Shown: positions 9,033 to 49,883 of the stretch, in pieces
How the letters are laid out: each line of letters begins with the position of its first letter
How positions within the stretch are numbered: the stretch's first letter is position 1
NCBI GenBank assembly: GCA_003116975.1
Contig: BGKB01000130.1
Coordinates: 119,075-183,074, forward strand
Source: Aurantiochytrium sp. KH105
Lineage: Eukaryota > Sar > Bigyra > Thraustochytrida > Thraustochytriidae
DNA length: 64,000 nucleotides
Direction: 5' to 3'
Program-made: the position numbers and the translations under genes
Notes under the pieces: generated by a model
Seen by the model: only the letters and a program-made list of their open reading frames with translations
What the model was told of the DNA's origin: nothing
Databases searched by the model: none

Positions 9033-11066
9033 CTACGATGAAGCGTTCAAGCCGGGAGGTTCATCTGTGCCAGCTGCAAAGGCTGAAAAAGCTGTTGGGA
9101 CTTCGGCATTCGCTTGAATAGGAGCAGGCGGAGGCGCAGCTCCTGATGCAGGTGCGCTGGCCGCGTCGTCCCCGTTACGCCGATTTTTGGCAGACTGGCG
9201 TCTCTCGCGACGCTTCGAAGCGTAAAAGTGATTCTTTACATCATTGGCGCTGCGGCCTGGCAGCTCTCGCGCAATGGCAGCCCAGTGATTTCCATTTTCC
9301 TTGTGCAGCACTCGAAACTTTTCGATCTCCGCCTCCGTCCATTCGCCTCGACGGAGATTGGGCTGAAGCGAATTGAACCAACGCTCGCGACACTGCTTAC
9401 CAATGCGTCCCGGGAGATATGGAGCGATCTGAATGGTCCACTTCGTTGGTCCATACTTTTCCACAAGAGAGCGCAGCTTGGCGTCCTCGGCAGGTGTCCA
9501 AGATCCACGTCCCTTCACGATGCTTGGATTAAGAACGTTGTTCCAGTGTCGGGCACACTGCAGCGCGGTGCGACGCGGCATGTCCTTGGCGATAAGATTC
9601 CAGTCTCCTGTTCCATGAGTCGTCACAAGGTCGAGGAGCACTGCGCCTTCTGCGGCGTCCCAGCGCAAGTCTTGCTCTGCATCCTCTTCCTCCTCTTGGC
9701 CGAGGGCGCTTTCCCCTGGCGGAGGGGGGGTAAAGGCGGCAAAGGCGGTGGTGTTTCCAGCCGCTTCCTGGCCTTGGTCCTTGTCTCCACTCTCGTCCGC
9801 AGTCACGCCACTTCTCTTGCCACGTGCTGCATGCGTCTGCGTATCCGCAGTAGTGCCCGTCTTTTGTGCCTTACGAGAGCCCGGGGGCGGAGGCGGCCCT
9901 GCGTCTGCCCCATCGTCGCCATCTTTTCGTGCACGCTTCCCCAAAGATGTCGCTGCTCCAGCTGCAAAGGAAGAACCAGGAGCATAAGTATCCTCGCCAT
10001 CGCCATGGCTGGCGTACACACCACTGACCACTTGCATGCGGGTCTTCAGCCGTCGTTGCGAAGCGTACCAGTGGTTTTTTACATCGTTATCACTACGCCC
10101 GGGCAGCTTCCTCGCGATGAGCGACCAGCGGTTCCCCACGCGCTGATGCATTTCAATAAGAGTGCGTTCCTCCTCTGGAGACCATGGGCCACGCTTGAGG
10201 TCTGGGTCAAGATGGTTACGCCAGCGCTCGCGACACTGTTTCCCTGTGCGGTTAGGAAAGTGGTTTGCGATAAAACTTGACCAGTTCTGAGGCCCATGCA
10301 TGCCAACAACCTTGCGCAAATTCGCATCCTCGGCTGCGGTCCACGAGCCTTTTGTCACCGGTGGAATCGCGGACATTTTCCTCCAATGTGCTCTGCACTC
10401 AGCCTCTGTGCGTTCCGGCAAGAAGCGAGCAATCTTATCCCATTCCTTGCCTTCATAGTGATTAACGGTTGTGCGCAGCACCTGCTCTTCGATGTCGGCC
10501 CAAGGAGGTCTTCCCGAAGCGATGGCTTCGGCTTCTTGAAGGGTCAGGCCAGTTGACTCCCCGTCAATCATGGCCCTGTTCTCATTTCCCTCGCCGTCGA
10601 GCTGATCGTCGTCTTCCCCTGTCGGGGTTCTCCTGTTGTTTTGGGACTCTGCATCTTTTGTGTTGTTATTGTCATCATCATCATCATCATCGTCTTCGTC
10701 GTTGTCGTCGTTTTCATCATTGTCGACGTCTCCATTCTGACCAGCGATATTATCGAGACGTGAATTTTCAGCGTCTTTCTCCCCCTCGTCTTGGTTTTCG
10801 TTGTCAGCGTCTTGTTGCGCGCCTCCTTGCGTGTCCTCTGGCAACAGAGCTGCGTCCGCACTCGCGTCCACGTCCCCGTCGCCGCCCTCTGCGTGCGCAG
10901 TCTCGTACGCTCGGCTTCGCTTTTGCGTGCCGTTTTGCTTCTGCTGCTGTCCTCCTCGCACCTTTTGCGTCTGCGTCTGCGTCTGCGCCCCGCCGTCGCC
11001 GTCGCCGTCGCCGTCCTCGGCCCTGGCCTTCGCCCTGGTCCTCGCGTCCTGCGCGCTCGTCATCAT
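9033..11066 (-). CDS. MYB transcription factor with two R1R2R3 blocks (six repeats)
   Basis: A 677-residue protein from the first ATG at 11066. Residues 1-185 are disordered, Gln-rich then strongly acidic (Asp/Asn runs near 112-134). The first three-repeat MYB block is about 189-340: a degenerate R1 (DIEEQVLRTTVNHYEGKEW), then R2 and R3 with canonical Trp spacing, KQCRERWRNHLDPDLKRGPW and SDNDVKNHWYASQRR. A 125-residue Pro/Gly/Lys linker follows. A second block is about 468-622 (WDAAEGAVLLDLV..W; GSWTPAEDAKL; KQCRERWFNSLQPNLRRGEW; SANDVKNHFYASKRR). Three-repeat MYBs bind AACNG-type sites and in many eukaryotes control G2/M or nucleolar genes. Two full blocks in one chain are unusual. The two share the third-repeat ending N-D-V-K-N-H-x-Y-A-S, pointing to an internal duplication. 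Confidence 0.93.
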   Translation of the reverse strand: MMTSAQDARTRAKARAEDGDGDGDGGAQTQTQTQKVRGGQQQKQNGTQKRSRAYETAHAEGGDGDVDASADAALLPEDTQGGAQQDADNENQDEGEKDAENSRLDNIAGQNGDVDNDENDDNDEDDDDDDDDNNNTKDAESQNNRRTPTGEDDDQLDGEGNENRAMIDGESTGLTLQEAEAIASGRPPWADIEEQVLRTTVNHYEGKEWDKIARFLPERTEAECRAHWRKMSAIPPVTKGSWTAAEDANLRKVVGMHGPQNWSSFIANHFPNRTGKQCRERWRNHLDPDLKRGPWSPEEERTLIEMHQRVGNRWSLIARKLPGRSDNDVKNHWYASQRRLKTRMQVVSGVYASHGDGEDTYAPGSSFAAGAATSLGKRARKDGDDGADAGPPPPPGSRKAQKTGTTADTQTHAARGKRSGVTADESGDKDQGQEAAGNTTAFAAFTPPPPGESALGQEEEEDAEQDLRWDAAEGAVLLDLVTTHGTGDWNLIAKDMPRRTALQCARHWNNVLNPSIVKGRGSWTPAEDAKLRSLVEKYGPTKWTIQIAPYLPGRIGKQCRERWFNSLQPNLRRGEWTEAEIEKFRVLHKENGNHWAAIARELPGRSANDVKNHFYASKRRERRQSAKNRRNGDDAASAPASGAAPPPAPIQANAEVPTAFSAFAAGTDEPPGLNASS

Positions 11067-11862
11067 GCGTCTGCGTTCGCGTCCGCCGCCCGCCGGCGCT
11101 TCCGGCGTCCTGCGCGCGCGCGTCCGAGAGCGCCGGGCGCTCTGCGGTCTCGCCCGGACCTCGCGCCCGGACCTCGCGCTGCCGCGCCTCGCGCTGCTTT
11201 GCTTCGCTCTGGGCGCCGTGCGGGCTTGCTTCGCTTCGCTTTGCCGCTCTGCCCGTCCTCTTTTTTCCACGCCTGCCTGCCTGCCTGCCTCTGCCGCGAA
11301 ACCGACGCCGTCGTTGCGTCGGTTAGCCCTGCCCACCCGTTCTTTCCTCTCACTTGCTTTCTTTCTTTTGTAAGCCCAATGGTTTTTTTTTCCCTCGCGT
11401 CAGGCTTCGTCGACCCGCGAGGGCGAGACGAGCTGCCGCTGGTGCGGTGAGAGTAGGCGCGTCTGAGCCCGCTCGAGCGCGTGGGCGGCGACGCCGGGGA
11501 AGGAAAGGCGAGGCTCGCCGCTGTTGAAAGGACGGATCTCCGTGTGACGCAAATTGGCAACCTCGACGTGATCTTTAAGGTTCGGGACGCCGCTGCCGGG
11601 AGCCGAGGCTCGAAACGGCCATAACGGCCACCGTTCTACGTTACTACTATCGGTCATCATTCTCTTTTCTTTGATCCAGAGAGCTTGCTTGCCTACGTGC
11701 TGGTAAATCAGATGATGCGATGCTTTCCATGGAATTTCCGTTCCACATCAAGGCGTTCATACGACGTATCAGTTTACGTAGGGCCCCTTGATTTTTTGGA
11801 GATAAAATGTCGTCAGTAGTGGTGGCGCTCAGAAAAGACAATCTTGTTTGCTTTTAGATTTT
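11067..11862. other. MYB 5' leader and intergenic DNA
   Basis: A GC-rich leader with a (CAGG)n run on the MYB sense strand (11272-11290), then ordinary intergenic DNA up to the stop of the epimerase-like gene. The MYB frame is open up to about 11336, but that part starts from a non-ATG codon and is low-complexity Arg/Ala. Confidence 0.45.
11272..11290. repeat. (CCTG)n run, (CAGG)n in MYB leader
   Basis: Nearly five tetranucleotide units about 210 bp upstream of the MYB ATG, reading CAGG on the sense strand. Confidence 0.88.
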
Positions 11863-39907: not shown

Positions 39908-40477
39908 CTTGATCCTCGGCAGCAACTCGCGCACTCGCTCCTTGTTCCCCGTAGTAGTCTCCCCGTCAAATAACCTGCCGGACGCCTCGCGCCTTCACTC
40001 TCTCGCGCGGTACCGCTCGACGGGCGGACGGAAGGCCGAACGTGCGTGCGCGCGGACGTTCGCGCAGGCGCCCCGCGGGTGCCTGCCTGCCTCGTGCGCG
40101 TCCTCGCGCCGCTGCTCCTCGCGTCCGCGCGGAGAAGGCGCTGCCCGTCGCGCGCGCTGATCCGGATTTCCCGCCTGCTTTTTTCAAAAATCAGATCCCG
40201 GGAAGGCCTCGCCGCCGCTCGCTCCGGCCTGCCTGACGGCCGGCCTGCCTGCCCGCGTGCGCCTCGCTCGCGCGCGCCCACGCCCTCGCGCTCGCGCTCG
40301 CCCGCCCCGCCGCCTCGCGTCCCCGCTCGCCCGCGCGCGCTCGCCTCCGCGGCTCGTCAGTCTCGGATTTGGATTGGGCCTCCTTTGCGCGTAGTAGCAT
40401 CGTGCAGCAGCGGCGCAAGCAGCAGGAGAAATTACTAGTGTAGCTAGCTAGTAGAGCAGTTTATACTGTTAGATAGA

Positions 40478-40524
40478 AAGCGCGGCGCCTAGCTGGCGCC
40501 TAGGGGGGGCTATGCGCCGCGCTT
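40478..40524. repeat. Inverted repeat/hairpin, 11-bp arms
   Basis: AAGCGCGGCGC at 40478-40488 pairs exactly with GCGCCGCGCTT at 40514-40524. The 25-base loop carries CTGGCGCCTAG, repeating the GGCGCCTAG formed at the left arm. Function unknown. Confidence 0.6.
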
Positions 40525-40677
40525 GCGCGCCTCATCTTCCGCGAGCTTTCGGCCGACTGCTCAGGATGGGTAGAACAGAGATTAGTGGGGACTAGTGCGA
40601 ACTAGTTATGCAAAACCGGGGTGCGCAGCGGCGCCGCGCGAGGAGCCTCAAGAAGGAAGGAGGTCACGTTTTTATAA

Positions 40678-40696
40678 GGGGGGGGGGGGGGGGGGG
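40678..40696. repeat. Poly-G run of 19
   Basis: An uninterrupted G run in the intergenic DNA; a likely slippage or assembly-error site. Confidence 0.85.
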
Positions 40697-42918
40697 TTCT
40701 TGGCGTGTGAAGGATGGATGATCACGCGCCGCGGCGAAGGCAAGTGGCTGGACCCGCACTTGAGCAACCTTGGACCTACCATTTGAGCCTGGAGAAGTGA
40801 AAGTCGATCGTTTCCATCCATGAGGAGATGTGATAAATGGATGTAGCTTCATTTGTTCCGAACAAAAGGGCGCATCTTTGACTCTCTCGCGCTTGATCCA
40901 TCGAAAGAGGATGCACATTCGTTCTTGGACCCAATTGGAATCAAGACAGTCTTGCATGCATGCATGCATGCATTCTCAAAATTGATCCAGGCCTGGAGAA
41001 TGTCTGTCTACTGTCTACTCTCTCATGACCGATCCATTTTCTCTAGGAGTATAGAGCAGTTCAGTATCGAGCGCTGCGTCCAATCCTCTGATATGGACCC
41101 CCCCTCTCCCTTCTCCATCTCTATCCCTTTCTCTCCCGACCTCCCAACTGGCGCTCCACCTTTTCCGACAATCGTTCACATCACAAGAAAAAAAAGTACA
41201 ACCTAGCCTACGGTAGCATGAATCCATTCCTAGAAGCTGCCCTTCTAACAGTATACAACCATATCTTTGGCCACCCCTACCCCTGGCTGCACAGTGTGGT
41301 GAGTGGTATTCGTTGTTGTTTCTGGTTCAAAAAGAGGTCTTGTCGCCTTACCTAGTGCCTCAGTGCGTCTTCCTCGCTAGCCTGTTTCTTGTGCCCCTCC
41401 CACGCAGCAAGTACATTTCTCCAGAGGCAATTTCCCCGTGCTCTTGCTTCTTGCTTCTTGCTTCTGCAGGCCTTCTTAGTAGCTGCTCTTGCTGTTTCGT
41501 TGCTGCTCTTGTTTGGACGCCTGCTCCAGGCAGACATTGACATTCGTTTCAGTCAGCAGTCGACTGACTGGTAGCAAGCTTAATAATGTCAACTTTCCTC
41601 GCATGGTGCTCGCAGTCGCCCTTGAGGCCTACTGCTCCAACCTAATGCCAGTATATACCGTTACGCTATCACTGATAGCTTGCCTGCGCACTCTTTGGCC
41701 ACCGACGGAACGGAAAAGGGACGGAGACATACATGGAGTGCCAGGTGTGGTGCCCACAGTGGATTGCGCTTCCTCACGGGCAAAGTTCCGGAGAAGGAGT
41801 CGTTTGGAAAGCTAGCAGCTTACCTCAGCAAAGCTAGCCCCCAGCTGTAGAGGGCCACCGTGCCCACTGTGGGACGTGGACTTGCCTCGCTCGTCATATG
41901 TATGCAGCCTTTTTGTTTTCGCATGGACACCCATTGGCTGTGGGAGGCGGGGAAGGTGCCTGCCTGCCTGACAGTCACACTCTCCGAGGAACAAGCCACC
42001 ACACTCTGTGTGTCAAGTCCGTATACGCGCTTCTGAATGGCCGGGTGGCCGGTAAGAATGGATGGCCGCGCTACCCCTAGATAGATCGAGTTCGATCTGC
42101 GCAGCGCCGACCAGCCCGGCCAGCCTCCGCGTGCCCGCCCGGGTTTGTCCATTCGCTGCGGCGCGCAGCACATTTCCTTTTCGCGCTCTCCCTCTCTTCC
42201 TCGCTCCCCCTCTCTCGCTCCCTCTCCACCAGCTAGCCTCCTCAGCCTGTAGTAGCAGCCTGCAAGCAAGAAAACAAGCGAAGCGTCCCAGGTTCTACAG
42301 ACGTAGGTTGGCCGGAGAAGCTACACCTTCAATCACAGGCTTCGCCAGGTTCCTTCACCGTGCTGCTCTACCCCCTCACTAGTCACCGCAGCGAAGCCAA
42401 CCATTGCACCACAGCTGTGTCACACTGTGGAACCTGAGGGCCTGGCCAATCCATCGAGTCCATGCGCGCCGGCCTGCGCTCGAGCTTCCGCGCCGCCTCC
42501 TCGCGCCCGCCAGCCTGGGCCCCCCTCTCCCCCTGCGTCCCGCGCCTGTCCATGCGGCGCTGGTCCGCGCGGCGCGCAGGCCCTCGCCGCGTCCAGCCCG
42601 GAGGCCGCCCTGCTTTTTCCCCCTTCCCTCCCTTCCCTCCGCACCCGATCCTTTCATTCCTCCTCCTTCTCTCCCGTACGGCGCGCCTGCCTCCCGAGGA
42701 GCCAGGCCGCGCCTGCTTAAACTCGTAGCAGCCGGCGCGCGCAGCCCACGCCGCGGCGCTGCGCCGGCGAGCAAACTCGCAACGAAGCCGCGGCGGCACC
42801 CGAAGAACTCGACGCGCGCGACCGCCCCGCGCCCAGCGCAGCGCAGCGGCACCGGCGGCGGAGGGCGGCGACGGCGAGGAGCGCGCGGCCGGCCTCTGCA
42901 GGCAGGCGCGCAGGCGCG

Positions 42919-42938
42919 CAGGCAGGCAGGCAGGCAGG
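42919..42938. repeat. (CAGG)n run in phytochrome leader
   Basis: Five CAGG units on the sense strand about 210 bp upstream of the phytochrome ATG. Confidence 0.85.
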
Positions 42939-43146
42939 CCCGCGGCAGCGGCAGCGAGCGGCCTCGGCCGGTCCGAGCGAGCGCCGTCACGCAGGCACGC
43001 GACCGGTAGGAGACCGCTAGGGGTCCCTACGGCCGCGACCCTGCGCTCGAGGCACACGGCGCGAGCTTGCGCTTGCTTTACACAGTGGAGGAGCGCGGCG
43101 CCCGCGTCTGCAGGGCCGCGCGAGGGAGCGCAGCAGCGGAGGCAAG

Positions 43147-46100
43147 ATGGCGCACAACAGGTGGAAGGACCTGGAGGGCACGGCGACCAAGACCGGCCTC
43201 ACGGCATGCGACACGGAGCCCGTGCATCTGGTGCCCCTGATTCAGGAGGGCATGGGCGCCGTCGTTGTGGTCCACGTGAGCGGCGAGGACAAGGACAAGG
43301 CCATCGTCAAGCAGGTCTCGTCCAACATTGAAGAGTGGACCAAGCTTGGCCCGGATGGGATGGTCAACCGCCCCATGCAAGATGTCCTTCCCGAGGGCAT
43401 CTGCGAGCTCGTGCAGGAGGCCGTCAACTTTGACCTGCTCCCCATTGAGTGCAGCACCAACCTGCCCGCACGCTTCAAAGAGCAGGTGCTGGGCCAGGAC
43501 ATGTGCGACTGGTGGAAGGACATTTACACCATGGACGAGGCCCAACGCTTCCTCAAGTCCAACTCTACCGTGCCTCCACTCGCCGCAAGAGACATGACGC
43601 GTCGCCTCGCAATTGGTGACAAACCTCACGTCCACGTCTCGGCAGCAGCTTCGCGCCGGCCCGCAGAGGGAAATCAAGCAAAGAATATGCCCGGGGAGGA
43701 CTTCCGCCCCGTCTGGTCCGTCATCATCACGCTTGAGGAGTCTGATGCCGATACCGATACCTTCTCGAATGACTACGCTGCCGTGGAGAAGCTCGATCGG
43801 CAAAATTGGCAGCTTGAGCTCGCCCGCGACGAACAAGAGCTTGCCACCCTTCTCACCGAGTATGTGGCCGATTTCTGCAAGTTTGACCGCGTCATGTACG
43901 TCAACTTTCTTCCCGGCGGTCACTGCGAGGTTGTTGCGGAAAAGACAACACCGGGAACCCCGACATTTATGAACTTTCGTTTCCCTGCCACCGACATTCC
44001 CATGCAGGCTCGTGCTTTGCTCAAACGAAACCGCGTGCGCCACATCATGGACACCGGCTCTCCTGGCGCTGAGCTTGTTCCATGCCATGTTGACGGCAAG
44101 CTCACCGATCTCAGCAACTGCCATCTGCGTCAGTGCGGACCCATCCATCGACAATATCTCAACAACATGAAGGTTTTCTCGAGCTGCACGGCTGGTGTCA
44201 TGGTCGACGACATGCTCGTCGGTATGCTTTCCTGCCACCACAAGGCCAAGCCCCTGACCATGGGGCCTGCCAAGCGCATGCTGCTTCGTCAGCTCTGCAA
44301 GTCAGCCAGTTCCGTGCTGCAGGCCATCCGTGCTCGCCGTGGCCGGCGCCTTGCGGCCAAGATCCAGCGCGTACTCCTCCCTCGCTTCGAGTCCGTCACT
44401 CAGGCCGTCGAGTGTCTCTCCGAGTCCGAGGGCATTCTTCGCGACACGGCCGAGGCCGATGCGCTCGTAATCGTCAGCTACGACTTGGACGCAGAGGAGA
44501 ATGTGCGCACCGTGCGGCAGGCGCTCACCTTTGGAGCGAGCGTCGATAGCGACGCCATCATCGCCGCCACACATGAGCTCTCCGATGCCCAGGACAAGGA
44601 ACTCATCCCGAACACGCCCTGCCTGCGCACAGAGTGCCCGAACGCCTACGAGGCCCACAAAGCGGCCTTCGAGCGCGATCGCGCCTCTGGTCTCGCCGTC
44701 ATCCGTCTCGTGCTGTGTGACATTGTTCTTGTGCGTCTGGGCGTCAAGCAGAACGTTCGCTGGGCAGGCAAGAAGGCCACTACGGGCGCAGACCTCACCA
44801 CGAACTCTCGGCTTGGGCCACGCGGCTCCTTTCAGGCCTTTGACGAGCGCCTCGAAGGCGTTGCCTTCGACTGGAGCGACGTCCAGCTCGACGCGCTCAG
44901 CTCCTTCCGTGCTCACGCCCACGTGTCCTTCTGCGATGTTCTCGCCGCTGACGAACGTAGGCGCACGACCAAGCTCACCAAGCGCTTCCTTGCCAGCGTC
45001 AGCCACGAGCTGCGTACACCTTTCAACGGTATCGTCGGTCTTCTCTCTGCCCTGCAAGAGGAGAGCATGCCTGATAGCGCCAAGGATCTTGTTGGCACCG
45101 CCGGCCGCTCTGCGGACGCCATGCTTGGCATTCTCGACGACCTGCTCACCGCTGCCAAGCTTGACGAGCACAAGGTGGAGCTCATGTCCACCCCGGTCGA
45201 CATTCCGCTGCTGGTCAACTCTGTCTACCTTCTCTTCGAGCGCGCCGTGTCGAAGGCGGATCTATCCCTCGTAGAAAAGGTATCCGACCATGCCAATCTA
45301 GTCAACAAGAACATGCTTGGTGATACCGGACGCATTCGCCAGATTCTTCTCAACCTTCTCGGAAACGCGCTCAAGTTCTCCTCACAGGGCGATGGCAAAG
45401 CCTCCAAGATCAAGGTCGAGGCTAGTATCTACAAAGACCCCGCTGCCCTTCACGAAGGCATCATGCGCGTCGTGGAGCAGTATGATGGTCTCAGCCAACC
45501 TCTGGAGAACCTCGAGCTGTCGCTGCCAGTGGATACTGAGACGAAGAGCGTCGACGAGTCGAAGGCTTCGCAGAGTAGCACCAAGGAGGCTACGAACGCC
45601 GGCACTACTGCCGGTTCGGGCAGCGAAGATGAAAAGTCTGTTTCCCTCGATCCTAGCGAAGCCGTATACGCGCTCTTCACTGTCACCGACGAAGGTATCG
45701 GCATTGAGGAGGCTGCGATGCGCTCCAAGCTCTTCCAGAAGTTTGCCCAGCTCCACTCTTCCGGTATCCGCAAGAAGTACCAAGGCACGGGTCTTGGGCT
45801 TTCCATCTGCGCAGACCTTGCTGAGCTCATGGGCGGCAATATCTGGTGCGCATCTACTCCCGGCAAGGGTTCGGCGTTCCAGTTCTTCGTCCCGCTCCAA
45901 ATCGTCGAAAAGGAAGAGGACGAGCTTGATGAGGCTTCCTCTCCCGAGGAGGAGGAGACCTCGACCTTTCGCATGCTTGCCAGCCGCTGTGGTGCTCTCG
46001 GCTCGTGCTCCGCGTCCGCCGACAGCCCTCGCTCGCTGTCGAGCCTGGTCACGGAAGAGGACGAGGACCTCGACGCTTTCGTCCGCGAAGTTGCTGCTTC

Positions 46101-46548
46101 GCAGCGGGCCGTCATCATCGCCGCCGATGACAATGACGTGAATAGGCTCGTCATCAACCGCACGCTCAAGAGCGCCTTTCCTCAGTTCCCCAACAAGGTG
46201 GTGGATGGTGGCGTACCTCTCGTCACCCTTGCCAAGAAGCTCACGCTGGCCTCGTGCCCGATCTTCGCCGTTGTCGTCGACTTCCACATGCCGGACCAGG
46301 ATGGCCTTAGCGCCTCGACTGAGATCCTCAAAGCGGACCCAACCATCGGCATCTGGCTGTACACGGCTGACACATCGCCGGATCTTCAGAAGCAGATCGA
46401 AGGTATTGGACTCGAGGGCGTCATCATTAAGCCGAGCAACCTCAAGACATTCAAGACTCTGCTTTCTGCGCCTCGCAAGAACCTAGACATGGATGGCGCC
46501 ACCGCCGCTGCCTCTCCTCCCGAGAGTCCTGCCATTCCAACCAAGTAA
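43147..46548 (+). CDS. Phytochrome hybrid histidine kinase (PAS-GAF-PHY-HK-REC)
   Basis: An 1133-residue protein with a clear start in GCAAGATGGCG. The PAS domain (about 18-150) begins T-A-C21-D-T-E-P-V-H, aligning with the chromophore-cysteine block of bacterial and fungal phytochromes (N-C-E-R-E-P-I-H). The GAF domain (about 205-375) has FDRVMYVNF, FPATDIPMQARALLKRNRVR (the PxSDIPxxAR motif, Asp283), LRQCGPIHRQYLNNMKV (His334) and GMLSCHH. The PHY domain (about 385-600) includes the tongue motif PRGSF (558-562) and a WSDVQLDALSSFR helix. The histidine kinase has SVSHELRTPFNG (His620), Asn740 in LLGNALKFS, DEGIGI and GTGLGLS; an acidic Ser/Thr-rich insert of about 80 residues splits the ATPase domain. 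The receiver has Asp994/Asp995, phosphoacceptor Asp1045 in VVVDFHMPDQDG and Lys1095. The plant-type GAF Cys is absent (Ile333 there), so biliverdin on Cys21 is predicted, giving a red/far-red sensor. Cytosolic; no membrane segment. Confidence 0.95.
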   Translation: MAHNRWKDLEGTATKTGLTACDTEPVHLVPLIQEGMGAVVVVHVSGEDKDKAIVKQVSSNIEEWTKLGPDGMVNRPMQDVLPEGICELVQEAVNFDLLPIECSTNLPARFKEQVLGQDMCDWWKDIYTMDEAQRFLKSNSTVPPLAARDMTRRLAIGDKPHVHVSAAASRRPAEGNQAKNMPGEDFRPVWSVIITLEESDADTDTFSNDYAAVEKLDRQNWQLELARDEQELATLLTEYVADFCKFDRVMYVNFLPGGHCEVVAEKTTPGTPTFMNFRFPATDIPMQARALLKRNRVRHIMDTGSPGAELVPCHVDGKLTDLSNCHLRQCGPIHRQYLNNMKVFSSCTAGVMVDDMLVGMLSCHHKAKPLTMGPAKRMLLRQLCKSASSVLQAIRARRGRRLAAKIQRVLLPRFESVTQAVECLSESEGILRDTAEADALVIVSYDLDAEENVRTVRQALTFGASVDSDAIIAATHELSDAQDKELIPNTPCLRTECPNAYEAHKAAFERDRASGLAVIRLVLCDIVLVRLGVKQNVRWAGKKATTGADLTTNSRLGPRGSFQAFDERLEGVAFDWSDVQLDALSSFRAHAHVSFCDVLAADERRRTTKLTKRFLASVSHELRTPFNGIVGLLSALQEESMPDSAKDLVGTAGRSADAMLGILDDLLTAAKLDEHKVELMSTPVDIPLLVNSVYLLFERAVSKADLSLVEKVSDHANLVNKNMLGDTGRIRQILLNLLGNALKFSSQGDGKASKIKVEASIYKDPAALHEGIMRVVEQYDGLSQPLENLELSLPVDTETKSVDESKASQSSTKEATNAGTTAGSGSEDEKSVSLDPSEAVYALFTVTDEGIGIEEAAMRSKLFQKFAQLHSSGIRKKYQGTGLGLSICADLAELMGGNIWCASTPGKGSAFQFFVPLQIVEKEEDELDEASSPEEEETSTFRMLASRCGALGSCSASADSPRSLSSLVTEEDEDLDAFVREVAASQRAVIIAADDNDVNRLVINRTLKSAFPQFPNKVVDGGVPLVTLAKKLTLASCPIFAVVVDFHMPDQDGLSASTEILKADPTIGIWLYTADTSPDLQKQIEGIGLEGVIIKPSNLKTFKTLLSAPRKNLDMDGATAAASPPESPAIPTK

Positions 46549-47174
46549 AGGCAAGCCAGAGACAGCTCTCGAAAACCTCGTAATCTAAGCTAGAGAGAAA
46601 AGAATCAGGGATATGCTCAGAGCAAGCAGCAAGCAGCAAGCCAAGCCAAAAGACAAAAGTGCCTTGCACGCCCCAGCTCAAAGAATAAATAAACAAAGAA
46701 TCCATCCTCTTACCTTTATTTTCAATTCCTATTATACCCTCGCGCTGTGGTTGGCAAACCTGACGATACCTTCGATCCTCTCTCCCCACTCTTTTTCTTT
46801 CTCTTGCGCACGCGCGATTATTAGCTGGCGTCTGCTTCTGTGCGAATCACGAAGACCGTCCGCAAGATTTTGCAGACAGGCATTGCAAATAATCGGCTCT
46901 CAAGTGGGGAGAGTTGCAAATTTCATGGCCTTTTTTGGAAACAAGTGAGTCACTTGGTCGACGAGAAAAACGGGGAAGGATTTATGACAAGAAAAGAAAA
47001 GAAATAAGAAAGTGAGCCTCTTCGCACGATCTACACAATTATGTAGTATCCACCCGTAGGCCTCTGGAAAGAAGGCTAGGCCTTCACGTACACAAAAGAA
47101 AAGAAAAAAAAGAAGGGGAATCATCCGATAGCGTAAAAAAAATCATGGGTTTGTCATGGCGCGGAAGTGCAGCC
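46549..47174. other. Convergent 3' region, phytochrome and GTPBP1-like
   Basis: AT-richer, with AATAAATAAAC near 46685 as a possible phytochrome polyadenylation signal. No gene or repeat recognised. Confidence 0.5.
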
Positions 47175-48845
47175 TTATGAAATTTTCACCTCATCGCCAT
47201 TCTCGCGAAAGAGACGCGTGATGCGGCCGCAGCCCTTGGCATTTCCCTCACGGAAGATCAAAGGCCGTCCAATCTCAAGGTACTCGGCGCAATGCAAAAA
47301 CCTAAAGCGAACAAACACCTGCGAACCTGTACGCGCCAGCACTTCTTCGCCCTTGTCAGAAAGAATCTGTACAATGCGCGCCGACTGGCGCACGCCCGCA
47401 AGGTGAATGAAGGGGGAGTATCCGCGATCGATGGTTGTCGAGTGATGCAATACCTTGACATCCGCTTCGAACTCCCAGACCGTTTGTGCTAGAGCGGCGG
47501 CATGGTCAGGTTCGCCGACGCCCACCATGCCCTTGCGAAAAGAGTCGCGCTTGAGCGTAGTACGCCCCACCGACTTGACCGCAAGCGTAGCGTGCTGGCC
47601 CTCAAAGGCAGCCTGCGAAGGCACACACTGACGATGGATCGAACGAATCACAACCTGCCGAAAACTACCCGCCTTGTCAGGCCCAATCCAGATGCGTTGG
47701 CCCAAATGCGCCTCGCCGCGCGCCACTGTGCCGCCGACAACAATGCCAACGCCGGGAACGTTGAAAACATCGTCGAGCATAAAGTTGAGCGAGGTCGCCG
47801 CCGACTGCGCCGCCGAAATAGCCACACCATTTGCTGCAGCCGGGGTCTGGGGGGTCATTGCAACGCCGTCATCGCCAAGCGGAGACACAACAATGGCGCC
47901 GCCCTCGCCGTCGGCAGGACCAGCTTTGGCCTCCTCGTCATCGTCGTCGGCGTTTCGGGCAAGATCGTCCTTCTTTCCAGTCGTCTTCGTGTCCCCGTCA
48001 CCCTCGAGTGAGGGCGTTGGCTTCCCCAAAGAGGGCGAAGTTCGAGACTTGCGAAGAGCCATACGTTTGATGAACTCGCGCAAAAGGTCCATGTGTTGGC
48101 CCGTCACGCTCGACACCTCGAAAACCGGGGCCAGAGCGACCTGATTGGTGTCCATGCACTTGATGGCACCGTCCAAGTCGCTCTCCTCACGGACGTAGAA
48201 CCCTCGTCGCCCGGCACGCTTCAGTATGCGTCTAATTCGCATCTGCGTCTCGCGAAGAACATTCTCCGGGACCATATCAATCTTGGTCTCGACAATGAAG
48301 AAGGGAATGCGAAGTGCGCAGCAAAGGCCAACGTGTTCGCGAGTCATGCGCTGAATGCCGCGCTCCGCGCCGATAACGACCATGGCACAGTCCGGATTCA
48401 TGGCTGTGAGCCCGTAGATCGACGACTTGAGGTACTTTTCGTGTCCGCACAGGTCTACGAGCGTCACGCGATGGGTTGCCTTGGAGGCTACTTCGTAGAA
48501 ATCCTTATTATGGCTCTTGCGCGCAGCTTCGACGGACTGGCTCGCCGGCATGATCTGTTCACCCTCACGGTATCCAAGCAAGGCCAGCGCTACTGACGAT
48601 GTCTGGCCTCGCTTCAGCTCATGCTGATGGCGGAGCACAAAGGACCGCGCTTTGCCGCGTCCATCGTCGAGCATGCCTCGCGTCAGGCACCCCACGAGCG
48701 TCGACTTGCCCGCATCTACGTTGCCGAGCATCGCCGCGCGAAAGTCCCTCGTTTCCGCGAAACCCCGCTGCGCAGCCGCTCCTCCCGCCGCCGTTTTGCC
48801 CGCTGCTGCCTTCGCCTCCGTCGTCGTCGTCGTCGCCGCCGCCGC

Positions 48846-48892
<47 letters not shown>

Positions 48893-48941
48893 CCGCAGCC
48901 TCGCCACTCTCGGCCGCCGCCGCCGCCGCGAGCGACGCCAT
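47175..48941 (-). CDS. GTPBP1/GTPBP2-like translational GTPase
   Basis: A 588-residue protein from the first ATG at 48941. An N-terminal low-complexity tail (1-58) contains a (Thr-Ala)n dipeptide run encoded by a GCCGTC hexanucleotide repeat. The G domain has G1 GNVDAGKST (73-81), a switch region with RHQHELKRGQTSSVALALLGY (typical of GTPBP1/2), G3 DLCGHEKYLK and G4 TKID in FFIVETKIDMV. A Gly/Asp-rich insert (near 325-390) precedes the domain II beta-barrel with FNVPGVGIVVGGTVARGEAHLGQRIWIGPD and the domain III end. GTPBP1/2 are EF-Tu/eEF1A-like factors linked to ribosome rescue and mRNA exosome decay in animals. All four G motifs are intact. It is followed, same strand, by COG1 upstream. Confidence 0.92.
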
Positions 48942-49883
48942 GCTCGACGGCCTCGCGGTCTCCTGCGCTCGCGCCGCTCGCGCTCTGCCTCGCGCTGCGC
49001 TCTGCTGCGCTCTGCTCCGCTCTGCTCTGCTCTTTTCTGCTCTGCCTCGATGTTGCCGCGCTCGAAGATCCGCTTCGAGTCCTCCTCCGGATCGGGGTTT
49101 GCAATTCCGCGCACGCACCTCGCCGCGCGCGCCGCTCCCACCCGACGCAGGATCATTTCCAATATTATCCAAATATATAGGCCCCTGGGTCCGGTACCGC
49201 TGGAGACGACGGCCTCGGGTTCCGGAACGGTTTTGGAACGGGTCCGGGAGTTTTATGCCGTGGTTCTTCGACACTTCTTCGCTGCGTGTGTGGCGCTGAT
49301 GTGGGGGGCTTTTGGCCGTGGCGGCGACGCGGTGAGTTGCGGGAATGGGGAGAGGGGACGAGAGAGAGAACTGGCCAGAGGCTGGGTGACTGGTGGCTGG
49401 CAGAGATCTCGGTCGCGGAACTGTTCCTTCTGGCAGGCTGGACTACGGATGGCTAGCAGTTATGTTTCAATGAATCAAAAACTGTCATTCTGATTTATGT
49501 TAGGGCCTAACGTTGTTCTACATCGCCACTGCCATTTGTCAGCGTTGGTGAGAGGACATAGCAGGTATGATGGTCCTACTGTGACACATCATACCCAAAA
49601 AGAAAGGCGTCGCGCGGCGCGTGTTCGTTTGAGGGCGCTTCCCGTTTTCCAATTCGTGCTAACTTGGCGACTTGTTTCGGTGATGCGTTGGAAGGAACCA
49701 AGGTTTTTACGACATGGAACAAGGCAGTACCACGATCCATTGTTGCATGGACAGAACAGCGCGGCACCGAGCTTGCCCTCTGGAAGAATTTTCCAGCCAA
49801 AAGAAAGCTTCTGAGACGCGGCCAATATTTACTCCTTTCTCTTCCTTCGCTGCCAGCCCGAGGGCGAACTTTGACTTATGTGC
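48942..49883. other. GTPBP1-like leader and COG1 3' region
   Basis: GTPBP1-like leader with CTCTGCTCCG-type short repeats near 49000-49050, then intergenic DNA. The GTPBP frame is open upstream from a non-ATG codon at 49274. No gene recognised. Confidence 0.45.

Follow-up and report, generated by a model that had tools for sequence, protein, structure and literature searches.

In a colourless marine thraustochytrid we find what looks like an intact gene for a phytochrome-type light-sensor kinase, as read from one 64,000-nucleotide stretch of DNA (the window) that forms the end of contig C130 in an assembly of 76.0 Mb and 367 contigs. We consider it likely that this gene encodes a light-responsive, biliverdin-binding sensor kinase. 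Since a near-invariant tyrosine of the bilin pocket is Val or Ile in this family, its sequence leads us to expect a photocycle that is atypical in its bands, its photoproduct yield or its coupling to the tongue, and not the standard red/far-red switch. The available part of a 2026 review presents the phytochrome-bearing stramenopiles as photosynthetic ochrophytes (PMC13150293); if a colourless marine decomposer has one too, such light sensing would be decoupled from photosynthesis among stramenopiles. Thraustochytrids are grown for lipids, and a light input to their signalling could have practical use. The sequence-only reading suggested, too, that the sensor might connect light with zoospore behaviour or with the making of lipids or carotenoids.

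The gene, its copies and its relatives

The sequence-only reading had placed a whole phytochrome hybrid kinase in a single frame, and this is borne out: the ATG frame stays open for 1133 codons with no intron needed (Table 1), and PATDIPMQAR, PIHRQYLNNM, PRGSF, His620 and Asp1045 are all found in its translation and in the alignment. At sequence level a chance origin of the frame is excluded, because it recurs on a second contig with 13 residue changes and the orthologue P0002 keeps 770 of the 1133 residues. Pfam places GAF (residues 228-389), PHY (457-589), HisKA (613-674), HATPase_c (825-918) and Response_reg (990-1103) above cut-off, and together with the alignment this gives a complete hybrid-kinase set, with the His in HisKA and the Asp in the receiver. 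The PAS domain claimed alongside them holds less directly: PAS_2 scores 17.6 bits over residues 1-207 of the window protein, under the cut-off of 21.4, but it reaches 23.6 bits, over the cut-off, in P0002, and a predicted structure aligns with bacteriophytochromes. This model (pLDDT 80.8, pTM 0.81) superposes on bacteriophytochrome structures of the DrBphP type over residues 4-601 and points to a PAS-GAF-PHY photosensory module; its confidence is low near residues 1-18, 97-120, 139-144, 178-180, 202-207 and 545-561, the last stretch, in the tongue, having pLDDT <50.

Table 1. Features of the phytochrome-type gene, in window positions
Feature	Position	Strand	Basis
Whole gene: phytochrome-type hybrid histidine kinase, 1133 aa	43147..46548	+	Open frame, Pfam, protein matches, second contig
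N-terminal PAS domain, about residues 19-200	43201..43746	+	PAS_2 in P0002; structure model
Cys21 codon (TGC), likely covalent biliverdin ligand	43207..43209	+	Aligned with N-terminal Cys; attachment inferred
Family-specific insert in PAS, near residues 99-150	43441-43596	+	42/52 residues identical to P0002
GAF domain, about residues 215-400, bilin pocket with PATDIPMQAR and PIHRQYLNNM	43789..44346	+	Pfam, alignment, model
Val252 codon, DrBphP/Cph1 Tyr176 position (Ile in P0002)	43900..43902	+	Alignment
PHY domain, about residues 401-590	44347..44916	+	Pfam, alignment, model
Tongue motif PRGSF, residues 558-562	44818-44832	+	Alignment
HisKA domain	44959..45186	+	Pfam; 70/76 residues identical to P0002
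Phospho-acceptor His620 codon	45004-45006	+	Alignment
HATPase_c domain with variable insert (about residues 751-838)	45187..45900	+	Pfam, P0002 comparison
Receiver domain	46102..46476	+	Pfam, P0002 comparison
Phospho-acceptor Asp1045 codon	46279-46281	+	Alignment

The second copy of the frame lies on contig C44 and differs at 98 of 3402 bases (84 of them in synonymous codons) and at 13 residues. Between the copies uncorrected pS is 0.104, pN 0.0054 and pN/pS about 0.05; purifying selection on the gene is evident in these sequences. The gene with its flanks (window 40019-49781) matches the second contig at 91.6-92.7%, the flanking DNA matching at 91.6% across 7057 aligned columns and at 92.7% across 2850. 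All eight families with genome matches occur in even numbers, consistent with two assembled haplotypes. Compared with the partner locus L009, the phytochrome gene in window 40019-49781 shows ~10% synonymous divergence. For a single diploid this is a high value, and the organism may be a hybrid or belong to a very diverse species.

When 5.8 billion proteins were searched twice with the full-length sequence, with ~7990 candidates scored each time, only two orthologues appeared among the matches listed (the best 120 of 714 and the best 120 of 706). The first, P0001, 'Histidine kinase 4' of Hondaea fermentalgiana, is 99% identical over 96% of the query and mixes the states of both copies at the 13 differing sites; by sequence, the host would be H. 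fermentalgiana or a very near relative. With this top match, and a genome search for chlorophyll-binding proteins that came back empty (it reads six frames exon by exon, and an intron-broken gene could escape it), the placing of a full phytochrome hybrid kinase in a non-photosynthetic stramenopile stands. P0001 belongs to the same protein family, but its deposited N-terminus, unlike that of the window protein, is unrelated and lacks Cys21, which may explain why the gene has gone unrecognised. The second orthologue, P0002, is 67% identical over 98% of the query. It retains the kinase His and the receiver Asp, and its identity falls from 92.1% in HisKA, the best-kept part, through 82.8% in GAF, 82.5% in the C-terminal ATPase part, 80.8% in the PAS insert and 74.5% in PHY to 37-50% in the linkers. 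Next among the matches listed are P0003 and P0004, at 29% over 50% and 47% of the query; the others are mostly at 23-34%, with a few short higher ones such as P0061 (38% over 15%) and P0129 (45% over 11%). Named sources beyond the orthologues are, among the matches listed, bacterial, cyanobacterial or fungal. Residues 1-600 as query gave five matches, a scope too narrow to speak for wider absence.

That the next-best matches listed are largely bacterial is what a contaminant, or a decaying copy, might produce. We regard this as extremely improbable, for the frame is open with strongly constrained residues, the gene is present in the Hondaea record, a second contig carries it with matching flanks, and the neighbouring window frames (glutathione synthase, Brix, autophagy-related proteins, H+-pyrophosphatase) are eukaryotic; contamination was rejected on the last two grounds. 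Elsewhere in the window, a frame at 9033-11336 (-) has six Myb-like DNA-binding repeats.

Probable pigment supply and an unusual bilin pocket

The sequence-only reading did not list Cys21 (within LTACDTEPVHL). This residue aligns with an N-terminal Cys present in 48 of 58 other phytochromes, at the position of the biliverdin ligand in the bacterial ones, and P0002 retains it. In the alignment Ile333 occupies the plant-type GAF Cys site. The protein has the Cys arrangement of biliverdin-type phytochromes, with one in its N-terminal PAS region but not at the plant-type site, and biliverdin is the likely chromophore. The objection that the genome might lack a bilin source falls away, as a profile search of its contigs found six heme oxygenase domain matches at four loci, two tandem domains in one frame on each of C3 and C19 and a single domain on each of C92 and C101. 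These frames retain VHREAE and GDLSGG, which we take to be heme-oxygenase motifs, and the predicted enzymes would provide biliverdin. No ferredoxin-dependent bilin reductase was matched in the genome (six frames, exon by exon; an intron-broken gene could escape); this search and that for chlorophyll-binding proteins were each positive in one of 14 control genomes, Synechococcus elongatus.

The tandem heme-oxygenase frame at L010 3540-5945 (-), with a partner in L012, has by eye a hydrophobic C-terminus, and the single-domain frame at L011 4396-5130 has a terminal CCIVM that resembles a prenylation signal. C3 and C19 each carry an Hpt gene and a cryptochrome/photolyase-type gene besides the tandem heme oxygenase, all within ~156 kb on C3.

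For the pocket we use what we take to be DrBphP numbering. Compared with 58 other phytochromes, the family retains the equivalents of Cys24, Phe203 (Phe in 14 of them, Tyr in 44), Asp207, Arg222, Arg254, His260, Tyr263, Ser272, His290, Trp451, Arg466 and Ser468; the pocket core (the DIP Asp, His260, Tyr263, His290) and the tongue PRxSF are thus in place. Val replaces Tyr176 (Ile does so in P0002), Leu replaces Tyr216, Cys Val256, Gly Ser257 and Lys Gly268, and Phe565 stands in for the usual Trp of the tongue motif.

The change at 176 stands out. It is Val in both gene copies, and both listed orthologues have Val or Ile there. Tyr is kept in 111 of 111 other proteins, a sample collected through words shared with the query (of 123 rows, 10 were not aligned at Asp-Ile and were dropped; P0125-P0137 were left out), and in 78 of 79 bacterial loci, drawn partly with a pattern containing that Tyr (80 of at least 584 kept, one of the 80 dropped for want of a usable frame); both counts are biased by this sampling, and many rows are close relatives. 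The one bacterial exception, L090 (Actinomycetospora chibensis), has Asp. Neither Cys256 nor Gly257 is seen in any of the same 111 proteins and 79 loci. A register shift at this position seems unlikely, given that the rows shown align without gaps between FDRVM and the following Phe, and the neighbouring Tyr251 should face the opposite side of the strand. We treat Tyr176 as near-invariant in the sample, not as defining for canonical phytochromes; it is absent here. In the portion available, PMC8980088 describes this Tyr as conserved across plant, cyanobacterial and bacterial phytochromes. With a residue missing that nearly all compared phytochromes keep, which light the sensor reads cannot be assumed, and the earlier description of the protein as a red/far-red sensor goes beyond the evidence. 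The 2026 review, in its available part, likewise holds protein sequence alone insufficient to infer light-sensing abilities (PMC13150293).

Precedents for the change at 176 point in two directions. As far as the available text of these papers goes, Cph1 Y176H loses photoconversion (PMC8980088) and becomes more fluorescent, with a Pfr-like tongue and a Pr-type pigment, and its plant equivalent signals without light (PMC11924222). The thraustochytrid protein might likewise bind bilin without photoconverting and serve as a light-independent kinase, constitutively active or otherwise regulated. This we find unlikely: the precedents concern His, not Val or Ile, in phytobilin-type phytochromes, the effect in biliverdin types is milder, and the pocket and tongue residues are conserved more strongly than one would expect had the sensor stopped working. 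In biliverdin bacteriophytochromes the equivalent change leaves Pfr formation unblocked, by the accessible part of PMC8980088, and on this ground a light response is still our best reading, its bands and yield not being fixed by sequence.

Whether such a response would be that of an ordinary red/far-red biliverdin phytochrome tolerating Val or Ile, a sub-case of our preferred explanation with which its odds overlap, is a nearer question. The unblocked Pfr and the retention of all the remaining main pocket residues fit it, as does the binding of biliverdin without spectral tuning by diatom phytochromes (PMC13150293, available part). Against it, the change comes with the rare Cys256 and Gly257 and persists in both copies and P0002, a pattern suggestive of selection for a different property; we give this sub-case somewhat less than an even chance, and formation of a normal Pr/Pfr pair is similarly somewhat doubtful. 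As a tentative proposal, a selectively maintained phytochrome lineage of colourless stramenopiles may have dropped the Tyr credited with coupling bilin isomerisation to tongue refolding and may signal through an unconventional photocycle, perhaps using other light bands or an alternative coupling via the pocket Cys, Gly and Lys replacements. A natural Val/Ile at 176 offers a ready-made test of why other phytochromes retain the tyrosine.

The divergent pocket, its extra Cys at 256 and the multiplied heme oxygenase genes would also suit a GAF domain that takes heme, bilin level or redox state, not light, as input. Cys21, the DIP motif, His260, His290 and PRGSF are nevertheless the set of a bilin photosensor, and we judge such an input improbable.

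Proposed relay and other sensors

For the preferred light-responsive kinase we infer the following order of events. Heme oxygenases would convert heme to biliverdin, which would attach to Cys21 and sit in the GAF pocket; light would isomerise it, and the PHY tongue and helical spine would relay the change to the HisKA-HATPase dimer, altering phosphorylation of His620. The phosphate would then be transferred to Asp1045 in the fused receiver, from there to the Hpt protein that the genome encodes and finally to a separate response regulator. An Hpt protein would be the natural next step since the kinase bears its own receiver. In profile searches the genome has 16 HisKA matches in 8 pairs (a lower bound), at least 36 receiver matches and at least one pair of Hpt matches; at four receiver-bearing loci (L038, L046, L050, L052) Pfam indicated no response-regulator partner.

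Other light-sensor families gave six rhodopsin-type, four cryptochrome/photolyase-type and two BLUF matches. At L026 1279-3270 a frame of 664 residues carries a rhodopsin-type domain and, after it, a long extension that Pfam does not match, and contigs C29 and C39 (L138, L139) each hold a BLUF blue-light domain in a 179-residue frame. Two hybrid histidine kinases (L020 1012-3180, L022 625-2856) have an ETR1_N ethylene-receptor-type N-terminal domain; the accessible part of PMC6944256 mentions receptors of this type for Labyrinthulomycetes.

Ancestry and likeness to known phytochromes

No title or abstract among the open-licence papers listed describes a phytochrome from a thraustochytrid, which is not proof that none has been reported. 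Non-photosynthetic organisms with phytochromes include fungi and amoebae (PMC6944256, available part). In a quick-method tree of 115 rows no sister of the three thraustochytrid rows is supported, and the stem leading to them is 2.92 changes per column long. In later trees of 88 rows, with long branches and close duplicates left out, a tree holding the fungal rows together lies 36.15 log units above the free quick tree (p-AU 0.892), the free search not being optimal, and one holding an unrelated bacterial trio instead lies 36.46 above it (p-AU 0.876). As both constrained trees beat the free search about equally, the data do not choose between a fungal and a bacterial link. Phytochromes occur in some macroalgal viruses, according to the part available of PMC13150293, and a viral route to the thraustochytrid gene may be considered; viral contigs scanned with P0002 gave no relative, and with alignment A1 four loci at 28-31% identity.

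Among solved bacteriophytochromes DrBphP is the best counterpart, sharing the PAS-GAF-PHY fold, the N-terminal Cys and the tongue PRxSF at about 23-27% identity in structural alignments across the whole module. In contrast to bacteriophytochromes, the window protein has a fused receiver and has Tyr176, Tyr216 and Ser257 replaced. The same domain order is known in fungal and diatom phytochromes, as described in the portions available of PMC4422448 and PMC13150293. Fungal Fph proteins (P0018, P0038, P0050) share the PAS-GAF-PHY-HisKA-HATPase-receiver order and also have colourless hosts, so the Fph-like architecture noted earlier holds as domain order; as ancestry, the trees neither support nor reject it. 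Unlike the window protein, the fungal ones keep Tyr176, and P0018 has a much longer N-terminus before the Cys. Diatom DPH, compared here by published descriptions, is a receiver-bearing classical kinase with a biliverdin chromophore in stramenopile hosts (available parts of PMC4422448 and PMC13150293), but those hosts, unlike the thraustochytrid, are photosynthetic.
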